The notes beneath the pieces were generated by a model, which saw only the letters and a program-made list of their open reading frames with translations, made no database searches and was not told the origin of the DNA. This document shows, piece by piece, positions 7,187 through 11,217 of a DNA stretch of 64,000 nucleotides; positions within the stretch are counted from its first letter, which is position 1, and each line of letters starts with the position of its first letter. This stretch comes from an uncultured Bartonella sp. (GTDB lineage Bacteria > Pseudomonadota > Alphaproteobacteria > Rhizobiales > Rhizobiaceae), in assembly GCA_946478235.1 (NCBI GenBank), contig CAMLBF010000004.1, positions 1 through 64,000 on the forward strand, read 5' to 3'. Position numbers and translations under genes: made by a program.

Positions 7187-8089
7187 ATGTCGATTCTTAT
7201 CAACAAAGATACTAAGGTTCTCGTACAGGGCTTGACCGGTAAAACCGGTACATTCCACACGGAACAGGCTTTGGCCTATCATGGCACAAAGATGGTTGGT
7301 GGTGTAAACCCTAAAAAAGGTGGCGAAACTTGGCAGGGTGGTAATGGTGAAACATTACCAATTTTCACAAGTGTTGCTGAGGGTAAAGAAAAGACAGGTG
7401 CCGATGCTTCTGTTATCTATGTTCCACCAGCAGGTGCTGCAGCTGCAATCATTGAAGCTATTGAAGCTGAAATTGGTTTGATCGTTTGTATCACCGAGGG
7501 TATTCCTGTTCTTGACATGGTCAAAGTTAAGGCCAGATTGAACAAGTCAAAATCACGCCTTGTTGGTCCAAACTGTCCAGGTGTTTTGACTCCAGATGAA
7601 TGCAAGATTGGTATTATGCCAGGCTCTATCTTTAAGAAGGGTTCTGTTGGTGTTGTATCACGCTCAGGTACTTTGACATATGAAGCTGTTTATCAGACTT
7701 CAATGGAAGGTTTAGGCCAGACGACAGCTGTCGGTATTGGTGGCGACCCTGTTAAAGGAACAGAGTTTATTGACGTGCTAGAGATGTTCTTGGCCGACGA
7801 AGCAACTGAATCAATTGTTATGATTGGTGAAATTGGTGGTTCTGCTGAAGAAGATGCTTCCCAATTCCTGATTGATGAAGCCAAAAAAGGCCGCCATAAA
7901 CCTGTTGTAGGCTTTATTGCTGGTCGTACAGCACCTCCAGGACGTACAATGGGGCACGCTGGTGCCGTTATTTCTGGTGGTAAAGGTGGTGCGGAAGATA
8001 AGATTGCAGCTATGGAAGCTGCAGGTATCCGCGTTTCACCTTCGCCAGCTCAGATTGGCAAAACACTTGTAGACGTTCTTAAAGGCTAA
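7187..8089 (+). CDS. sucD: Succinyl-CoA synthetase alpha subunit
   Basis: CoA-binding domain, [28 protein letters not shown]. Confidence 0.96.
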
Positions 8090-8098
8090 ATGCTTGAA

Positions 8099-8211
8099 AG
8101 CCACCCGTTGTAAAATACGGGTGGCTAAATATTCAACAGAAGCAATGGCTTCTTCAACGTAATTCCGTAGGGGATACCCACGGATTTTAAGGAGACGGAA
8201 CAAACGTTCCG
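8099..8211 (+). other. Structured sucD-sucA intergenic segment: four consecutive hairpins (8099-8126, 8138-8153, 8164-8184, 8196-8211)
   Basis: AGCCACCCGT/ACGGGTGGCT (10 bp); AGAAGC-aatg-GCTTCT (6 bp); TCCGT(a)GGG-gata-CCCACGGA; CGGAAC-aaac-GTTCCG (6 bp). All read directly. Confidence 0.75.
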
Positions 8212-8220
8212 GCAGAAGAA

Positions 8221-11217
8221 ATGGCAAGGCAGGACCAGTCAAACGATCTTTTTGCACAAACTTCATTTCTATATGGCGGCAATGCTGACTATATTGATCA
8301 GTTATATGCAGAATACGAAAAAGATCCCGCTAGTGTTGATCCACAATGGCGTGAATTTTTTGAAAATCTTCAGGATAACAAAGAAGACGTGCTTAAAAAC
8401 GCCGAAGGGGCATCTTGGAAGCGTGATAATTGGCCTTTGAAAGAGAGTGGTGAACTTGTTTCAGCTCTTGACGGGGATTGGCCCACAGTCGAAAAGCATA
8501 TCGGGGATAAACTTAAAGGTAAAGCAGCTGAAGCAACCGCAAAAGGTTTACCCGCAGCTACTGATGCCGATATCATTCAGGCAACGCGTGACTCTGTCCG
8601 CGCAATTATGATGATCCGCGCTTACCGTTCGCGTGGTCACCTTCATGCCAAGCTTGATCCATTGCAGCTTCGTGAAGCGCCTGAAGATTATAACGAATTG
8701 TCTCCAGAGACCTATGGTTTCACGGCGGCAGACAATGATCGCAAGATTTTTATTGATAACGTATTAGGACTTGAATACGCTACAATTCCTCAAATGTTGG
8801 AAATCCTTAGAAATACATATTGCTCGACAATTGGCGTTGAGTTTATGCATATTTCTGATCCTGCACAAAAAAGCTGGATTCAAGAACGCATTGAGGGTCC
8901 ACGTAATTGGGTATCTTTTACACCAGAAGGTAAAAAAGCTATCGTTCATAAATTGGTTGAAGCAGAAGGCTTTGAGCAATTCTTGGATACCAAGTATAAA
9001 GGAACCAAGCGTTTTGGTCTCGATGGTGGTGAAGCGCTTATCCCAGCTTTGGAACAAATCATTAAGCGCGGCGGTGCATTAGGCGTTGAAGAAATCGTTT
9101 TCGGTATGGCGCACCGCGGTCGTTTGAATGTTTTGTCGCAGGTTCTATCTAAGTCACACCGTGCTATTTTCCACGAATTCAAAGGTGGATCATATAAACC
9201 TGATGATGTAGAAGGTTCAGGTGACGTTAAGTATCACTTAGGATCATCTTCTGATCGTGAATTTGACGGCAATAAAGTTCACCTGTCACTTTTGCCAAAT
9301 CCTTCTCATCTTGAAATTGTTGACCCAGTTGTTATGGGTAAAACACGTGCCAAACAGGATCAGCTTGTTGGTCCAACCCGCACAGACCTTATTCCTCTAA
9401 GCGAACGCGCTAAGGTTATGCCCGTTCTCATCCATGGTGATGCGGCATTTGCTGGACAAGGCGTTATTCAGGAAACTTTGGGTCTTTCTGGGCTTAAAGG
9501 TTATCGTGTTGCTGGTTCAATCCACTTTATCATCAATAACCAGATTGGCTTTACCACCAATCCGCGCTTTTCAAGATCATCGCCATATCCATCAGATATA
9601 GCGAAAATGATCGATGCACCGATTTTCCATGTTAATGGAGATGATCCGGAAGCTGTTGTTTATGTTGCTAAGGTTGCAACAGAATTCCGTCAGATTTTCC
9701 ATAAGCCGGTTGTTATCGACATGTTCTGTTATCGTCGATTTGGTCACAATGAAGGCGATGAACCATCTTTCACTCAACCACTTATGTATAAAGCAATTCG
9801 CGGTCATAAAACTACCTTGCAGCTTTATGCAGATCAATTGGAAAAAGAAGGTCATCTCAAGCCAGAAGACTTGCAAGCACAACAGCAAGAATGGCGTGAT
9901 AAGCTTGAAGCAGAGTTCGAAGCAGCTTCATCTTATAAGCCTAACAAAGCTGATTGGCTCGACGGCACATGGACTGGCTTGAAAGCCGCAGACAATGCAG
10001 ACGAGCAGCGCCGTGGCGCAACAGGTGTTCCAGTTAAAACACTGAAAGAAATTGGACAGAAATTGGTAGAAATACCGGCAGATTTCCATGTTCATAAAAC
10101 CATTCAGCGTTTCTTGGACAACCGTGCCAAAATGTTCGAAACCGGTGAAGGTATCGACTGGGCAACGGGTGAGGCTTTGGCATTTGGTTCTCTTTGCCTT
10201 GAAGGCGCACCAATCCGCTTGTCTGGTGAAGATGTAGAACGTGGTACATTCAGTCAACGTCACTCTGTTCTTTATGATCAAGAAAATGAAAACCGCTATA
10301 TCCCATTGAATAACCTTAAAAAGGGACAAGCGATCTATGAACCTGTCAACTCAATGTTGTCTGAAGAAGGCGTATTGGGATTTGAATATGGTTACTCATT
10401 GGCTGAGCCACGCGGCTTGACATTATGGGAAGCACAATTTGGTGACTTCGCAAATGGCGCACAAGTTCTGTTCGACCAGTTTATTTCTTCTGGTGAACGC
10501 AAATGGTTGCGTATGAGCGGTCTGGTTTGCTTGTTGCCACACGGTTTTGAAGGCCAAGGCCCAGAGCACTCTTCTGCTCGTTTGGAACGTTATTTGCAGC
10601 TTTGTGCTGAAGATAATATGCAGGTTGCCAACTGTACAACACCTGCCAATTACTTCCACATTTTGCGTCGTCAAATCAAACGTGACTTCCGTAAGCCACT
10701 CATTCTTATGACACCAAAGTCATTGTTGCGTCATAAACGTGCAATTTCTCCATTAAGCGATATGGGTGCAGATACTACATTCCATCGCTTGTTGTTGGAC
10801 GATGCACAGCAACTGAAGGATCAGGCAATCAAGTTGCAAAAAGACAACAAGATTCGTCGTGTCGTCTTGTGTACCGGTAAAGTTTATTACGATCTTTATG
10901 AAGAACGTGAAAAACGCGGCATAGACGATGTCTATCTGTTGCGCGTTGAGCAGCTTTACCCATTCCCGGCAAAAGCTTTGATAACTGTGCTTTCTCGCTT
11001 CTTGCAGGCAGAGATTGTCTGGTGTCAGGAAGAGCCGAAAAATATGGGTGCTTGGTCGTTCATCGAACCTTACCTTGAATGGGTGTTGGCACATATTGGA
11101 GCAAAATATCCACGTGCCCGTTATGCTGGCCGTCCTGCAAGCGCATCGCCTGCAGCAGGTCTCATGTCACAACACCTTCAACAGCTCGCAGCGTTCCTTG
11201 AAGACGCACTGGCTTAA
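8221..11217 (+). CDS. sucA: 2-oxoglutarate dehydrogenase E1 component
   Basis: N-terminal NDLFAQTSFLYGGNADYIDQLY, thiamine-PP enzyme motifs, GMAHRGRLNVL, 998 aa. Confidence 0.96.
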   Translation: MARQDQSNDLFAQTSFLYGGNADYIDQLYAEYEKDPASVDPQWREFFENLQDNKEDVLKNAEGASWKRDNWPLKESGELVSALDGDWPTVEKHIGDKLKGKAAEATAKGLPAATDADIIQATRDSVRAIMMIRAYRSRGHLHAKLDPLQLREAPEDYNELSPETYGFTAADNDRKIFIDNVLGLEYATIPQMLEILRNTYCSTIGVEFMHISDPAQKSWIQERIEGPRNWVSFTPEGKKAIVHKLVEAEGFEQFLDTKYKGTKRFGLDGGEALIPALEQIIKRGGALGVEEIVFGMAHRGRLNVLSQVLSKSHRAIFHEFKGGSYKPDDVEGSGDVKYHLGSSSDREFDGNKVHLSLLPNPSHLEIVDPVVMGKTRAKQDQLVGPTRTDLIPLSERAKVMPVLIHGDAAFAGQGVIQETLGLSGLKGYRVAGSIHFIINNQIGFTTNPRFSRSSPYPSDIAKMIDAPIFHVNGDDPEAVVYVAKVATEFRQIFHKPVVIDMFCYRRFGHNEGDEPSFTQPLMYKAIRGHKTTLQLYADQLEKEGHLKPEDLQAQQQEWRDKLEAEFEAASSYKPNKADWLDGTWTGLKAADNADEQRRGATGVPVKTLKEIGQKLVEIPADFHVHKTIQRFLDNRAKMFETGEGIDWATGEALAFGSLCLEGAPIRLSGEDVERGTFSQRHSVLYDQENENRYIPLNNLKKGQAIYEPVNSMLSEEGVLGFEYGYSLAEPRGLTLWEAQFGDFANGAQVLFDQFISSGERKWLRMSGLVCLLPHGFEGQGPEHSSARLERYLQLCAEDNMQVANCTTPANYFHILRRQIKRDFRKPLILMTPKSLLRHKRAISPLSDMGADTTFHRLLLDDAQQLKDQAIKLQKDNKIRRVVLCTGKVYYDLYEEREKRGIDDVYLLRVEQLYPFPAKALITVLSRFLQAEIVWCQEEPKNMGAWSFIEPYLEWVLAHIGAKYPRARYAGRPASASPAAGLMSQHLQQLAAFLEDALA

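Follow-up and report, generated by a model that had tools for sequence, protein, structure and literature searches.

Structured spacers between a Shine-Dalgarno (SD) sequence and its start codon are, to our knowledge, known until now mainly from phage T4. In T4, such a structure shortens the way from SD to AUG from 27 to 11 nt at gene 25 and from 22 to 5 nt at gene 38, and mutations that destabilise the hairpin lower initiation (PMC3014915). Structured leaders have also been described at genes of succinyl-CoA metabolism: sucA-II (RF01758) and sucC (RF01759) are candidate leader RNAs from Pseudomonadales and gammaproteobacteria (PMC2864571). The sucA motif of Burkholderiales (RF01070), 83 nt long, combines several helices with unpaired sequence that is conserved; its SD-like AGGUGAG lies inside the last helix, within about 10 nt of the AUG, and the RNA can hide the SD. 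RNA thermometers and operators, too, often sit in ribosome-binding sites, and thermometers and other SD-sequestering hairpins pair with the SD or the AUG and repress when folded.

The locus considered here belongs to an uncultured, bee-type Bartonella sp., whose close relatives are likewise recorded as Bartonella; the window is the whole stretch of DNA that was analysed, 64,000 nucleotides of contig CAMLBF010000004.1. The operon order is mdh-sucC-sucD-sucA-sucB, with lpd further downstream, and a 131-nt spacer separates the sucD stop from the sucA start (Table 1). A first-pass annotation had pointed out four consecutive stems in this spacer, and all of them are found there letter for letter. 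The 146-nt region folds with a minimum free energy (MFE) of -53.8 kcal/mol, versus a mean of -31.8 kcal/mol for shuffled sequences (z -5.77; none of 200 shuffles equal), and stems 1-4 are all present in both the MFE and the centroid structures; stem 4 has a predicted stability of -7.1 kcal/mol and a mean pair probability of 0.99. The spacer has no second copy elsewhere in the genome (best other match E ~1), which rules out its being a repeated element. The most informative part of the arrangement, the position of stem 4 between the SD and the ATG, had been missed by the first-pass annotation.

Table 1. Features of the sucD-sucA junction; positions are those of the window.
Feature	Position	Strand	Remarks
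sucD	7187-8089		upstream flank of the spacer
Stem 1	8099..8126 (arms 8099-8108/8117-8126)	+	10-bp hairpin just 3' of sucD; clade-specific
Stem 2	8138..8153 (arms 8138-8143/8148-8153)	+	6-bp hairpin; clade-specific
Stem 3	8164..8184 (arms 8164-8172/8177-8184)	+	8-bp hairpin with one bulge; clade-specific
sucA Shine-Dalgarno AAGGAG	8189..8194	+	from the sequence; 26 nt upstream of the start codon
Stem 4	8196..8211 (arms 8196-8201/8206-8211)	+	6-bp hairpin CGGAAC-AAAC-GTTCCG, between SD and AUG
Linker from stem 4 to start codon	8212..8220	+	9 nt
sucA, 2-oxoglutarate dehydrogenase E1	8221..11217	+	ATG at 8221; conserved N-terminus M-A-R-Q

We propose, with a probability of about 0.72, that stem 4 and its flanks constitute a conserved accommodated (split) ribosome-binding site of sucA, of the type seen in T4 genes 25 and 38; the hairpin is probably kept across many alphaproteobacteria to bring the SD and the start codon to the right spacing. 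A split site should have its SD some 20 nt or more from the AUG, a hairpin that leaves normal spacing when looped out, and compensatory substitutions in that hairpin, and all three are seen at sucA. A distance of 26 nt between SD and AUG would be too long for initiation of the usual kind; folding would loop out 16 nt, so that the 30S subunit would see an effective spacing of about 10 nt (1 + 9), and the corresponding value is 7-10 nt in most relatives. By analogy with T4 genes 25 and 38, the fold would be needed for efficient sucA translation, and melting or occluding stem 4 would be expected to reduce it. The phage and bacterial sites share a hairpin between SD and AUG whose folding shortens an over-long distance, and gene 25, like sucA, lies at an intercistronic junction. 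However, the T4 sites belong to phage genes and are conserved no further than close T-even phages, whereas sucA is a gene of bacterial core metabolism, its layout showing compensatory conservation over the family and being traceable in other orders. The mechanism would be that known from phage T4; the setting, a bacterial core gene, family-wide and traceable through the class, is new, and no report of an SD-hairpin-AUG layout at sucA was found in the open-licence PMC literature.

Spacers were extracted from 80 named Hyphomicrobiales loci, from 30 Bartonella genomes, and from samples of the order and the class. The layout in relatives consists of an SD (AAGGAG, AGGAGG or GGGAG), a gap that is mostly -1 to 1 nt, a hairpin of 5-7 bp with a loop of 3-7 nt, a linker of mostly 8-9 nt, and the ATG; the linear SD-AUG distance is mostly 24-28 nt, and 22-31 nt in nearly all. 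In Rhizobiaceae s.l. (Bartonella, Brucella, Mesorhizobium, Rhizobium and others) a mechanical detector finds this layout at 94 of 102 distinct sucA starts; the figures are 16/28 for sucA starts from other families of the order and 11/28 for those from other orders. None of the 150 sucD starts taken from these loci has it, and when sucA upstream regions are dinucleotide-shuffled it turns up in 1.5%. With 60 additional genomes the counts were 15/50 for the order and 5/10 for the class, versus 2.2% of shuffles. Of 113 loci that do not belong to Rhizobiaceae, 47 show the layout; the share among sucA starts of other families and orders in the class is about 40%. Several of the detector's misses still carry the hairpin, with an imperfect pair or an unlisted SD (e.g. 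L076, L078, L106, L241, L263). Beyond Rhizobiaceae s.l. the layout is patchy; many alphaproteobacteria, including Ruegeria (L237), do without it, and it is therefore not essential for sucA translation in the class.

Some of the lineages that lack the layout have an ordinary near SD (L044, L083, L054/L057). In L054 and L057, whose spacers measure 506 and 527 nt, and in L044 (858 nt), a gene-sized insert lies between sucD and sucA; in the Hoeflea type it contains a small ORF that, judged by eye, is SnoaL-like. The insert coincides with loss of the hairpin and with a near SD at sucA, which amounts to a natural replacement experiment. Among the records read, a 3.72-Mb Sinorhizobium meliloti sequence titled 'plasmid pSymB' (CP090106.1, L176) carries mdh-sucCDAB and seems, from its size, to be a mislabelled chromosome.

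Within genomes, the layout is close to specific for sucA. Run over ~865 kb of the genome to which the window belongs, with 709 predicted genes, the detector picks out, apart from sucA, one weak ORF with a GTG start, its rate at other ATG/GTG/TTG triplets being 1.8e-4. In ~430 kb of a second genome together with a Sinorhizobium meliloti segment, 411 predicted genes in all, the best two of seven matches are the two sucA genes.

The stem 4 hairpin is maintained via compensatory change. In an alignment of 55 Hyphomicrobiales sequences, 5 of its 6 pairs have compensatory two-sided changes, and standard pairs fill 93.6% of the pair cells. Covariation scores 0.384 in this alignment; shuffled alignments give 0.151, with 0/500 reaching the real score, and slid controls give 0.152 at most. 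RNAalifold independently recovers the helix. The sequence, loop and length of the hairpin, on the other hand, are free to vary. The 105 distinct sequences contain 42 different stems and 70 different loops, without enrichment of GNRA (one) or UNCG (none) loops, while the linker to the AUG is nearly constant: 47 sequences have 9 nt and 30 have 8 nt, together 77 of the 105. As the stems and loops vary freely and the linker does not, these comparisons indicate that geometry rather than sequence is preserved.

The position of the SD itself is unusual. In 95 related sucA upstream regions, the median distance between the AUG and the strongest anti-SD site is 23 nt, with 85% at 17-30 nt, whereas the strongest site of sucD has a median of 7 nt. 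The mean anti-SD energy in these sucA regions is -8.9 kcal/mol at the distant site versus -4.6 kcal/mol near the AUG. At the loci outside Rhizobiaceae, the association of hairpin and distant SD, with the energy contrast seen there, is partly built in, as the detector demands an SD upstream of the hairpin. Most of these sucA genes are without a good SD close to the AUG. A near 4-nt SD and the split layout tend only weakly to exclude each other (Fisher p 0.035), as 4-mers occur by chance. What speaks against the split-site reading is that its effective spacing in the window, 10 nt, exceeds the usual SD spacing in this genome (mode 7 nt, only 19 genes counted).

A misplaced start, with the true start inside the hairpin, was ruled out, as an in-frame ATG, GTG or TTG at canonical spacing is found there in only one of 105 relatives. 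In L100 (genome G046) the usual ATG is followed by a frameshift, a 2-nt insertion at sucA codon 4, and the remaining frame would instead match a GTG that lies within the hairpin, some 9 nt from the SD; this is either an assembly error or a real change. Out-of-frame ATGs within the hairpin number 13 in 105 relatives. Other Bartonella, e.g. L010 and L109, have one in the hairpin loop at a linear spacing of about 9 nt from the SD (AAGGAGACGGAATAGATGTTCCG), and the stem 4 fold may also hide this decoy.

Stems 1-3 belong to the 3' side of sucD and are clade-specific structures in their own right, not one unit with stem 4. They are confined to the bee-type Bartonella clade, most of which retains all four stems, and are lacking in other Bartonella and in all other families. 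Within the clade, stem 1 has two-sided changes in 4 of 10 pairs, stem 2 in none, and stem 3 likewise in none, its changes being one-sided only. The place of stem 1 is taken by an unrelated hairpin in L101 and also in other families. More generally, in most of loci L008-L175 the first 70 nt past the sucD stop contain a strong hairpin of lineage-specific, unrelated sequence, so that the position is kept and the sequence is not; the spacer fold has a mean z of -2.96 over 141 spacers, with 62% below -2. In sister species within the bee-type clade (L092-L097), stem 1 has a counterpart with GATTTTTTT behind it that resembles an intrinsic terminator between sucD and sucA; the window has lost this T-run. 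No intrinsic terminator (GC-rich stem plus T-run) is called in the sucD-sucA spacer of the window, so the earlier remark that none of the stems is followed by a T-tract holds for this window, the sister species differing at stem 1. Stem 1 is probably an mRNA 3' stabiliser, or a weakened terminator that forms a partial end of the sucCD transcript. Spacers of the Mesorhizobium type (L022-L047) consist of short, nearly identical repeats (GGGAGTAGGGCAGTAGG, GTGAATAGTGAATAG), which make up long inverted repeats with imperfect pairing.

How far do these observations fit other explanations? The first-pass annotation had suggested a cis-regulatory RNA tuning sucA against sucCD. A conserved cis-acting element is indeed present, in the form of stem 4; the four stems do not form a unit, and of the four it is stem 4 alone that passes the covariation comparison across relatives by which that suggestion was to be judged. 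A composite, riboswitch-like leader built of all four stems would be in keeping with the strong overall fold (z -5.8) and with the retention of the stems in most of the bee-type clade. We nevertheless give it hardly any credence, and rejected it as a four-part leader on account of the clade-specific stems 1-3: these are missing wherever one leaves that clade while stem 4 stays, two of them are without two-sided change, no Rfam family matches even at a permissive threshold, and the conserved unpaired nucleotides typical of an aptamer are absent. Nor is it at all probable that the stems, without any part in translation, are just ordinary signals of mRNA ends and processing at the sucD-sucA junction, such as transcript stabilisers, weak terminators or RNase sites. 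The unrelated hairpins that follow sucD in most lineages and the T-run behind stem 1 in the sister species do speak for such signals, which are a good explanation for stem 1, but they leave unexplained a covarying stem 4 that is fixed within 1-2 nt to both the SD and the AUG. The intrinsic terminator or attenuator pattern of a stem with a T-run is likewise limited to the sister species' stem 1.

The more serious competitor, though still an unlikely one, is that stem 4 is an operator or switch through which temperature, a helicase, a protein or a small RNA would set sucA translation higher or lower; the hairpin itself would then lower basal initiation, and its effect on spacing would be secondary. 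The hairpin is conserved at a single metabolic gene, the predicted accessibility of the SD and AUG is moderate (about 0.4-0.5), and a binding site for a regulator that recognises shape only would also conserve a hairpin in the spacer. However, with stem and loop sequences unconserved and loops of 3-7 nt, a sequence-specific readout of stem 4 is not expected, and the 70 distinct loops in 105 sequences do not provide the conserved unpaired nucleotides of a riboswitch or protein operator. Predicted stabilities across relatives range from -4.6 to -17 kcal/mol, with no tuned threshold. Stem 4 is, like the RNA thermometers and SD-sequestering hairpins, a small hairpin at a ribosome-binding site; unlike the classical cases, it does not pair away the SD or the AUG, its SD lies outside the hairpin, and its fold would, by the T4 analogy, be expected to help.

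Kinship with the sucA and sucC leader motifs of beta- and gammaproteobacteria, which the first-pass annotation had mentioned, is not borne out. A scan of the window with the covariance models of all 4227 Rfam families gave no match at the gathering threshold, and only chance-level ones at E up to 10, so that no family matches the spacer; sucA-II (RF01758) and sucC (RF01759) are thereby ruled out, cmscan giving no match to either in the window. RF01070 has no match in the whole genome of the window, whereas 15 of 249 genomes from the phylum carry one. Membership in it is ruled out by cmscan and by six real members that were read: these share with stem 4 the presence of a structured RNA directly upstream of sucA, but the element described here is a single hairpin downstream of an exposed SD, and the expected sign of its effect is opposite to that of RF01070.

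The accommodated ribosome-binding site, as we read stem 4, bears on how such sites are recognised in general. Gene finders, start-site annotation and calculators of ribosome-binding site strength treat the spacing between SD and start codon as linear, and a hairpin in a ribosome-binding site is normally read as inhibitory; sucA would break both rules. The dozens of independent stem variants are a natural comparative test bed for the handling of structured SD-AUG spacers by the 30S subunit. A stronger version of the same idea, in which sucA is translated only when the hairpin is folded and this layout, a structure-ON switch, has been selected across much of Alphaproteobacteria, is possible, but we advance it tentatively and consider it rather doubtful. 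If it were true, anything that melts the hairpin, be it heat, a helicase or a small RNA, would turn down 2-oxoglutarate dehydrogenase. In rhizobia, Brucella and Bartonella, the sucA hairpin may be a point of control over the TCA cycle at its 2-oxoglutarate branch.
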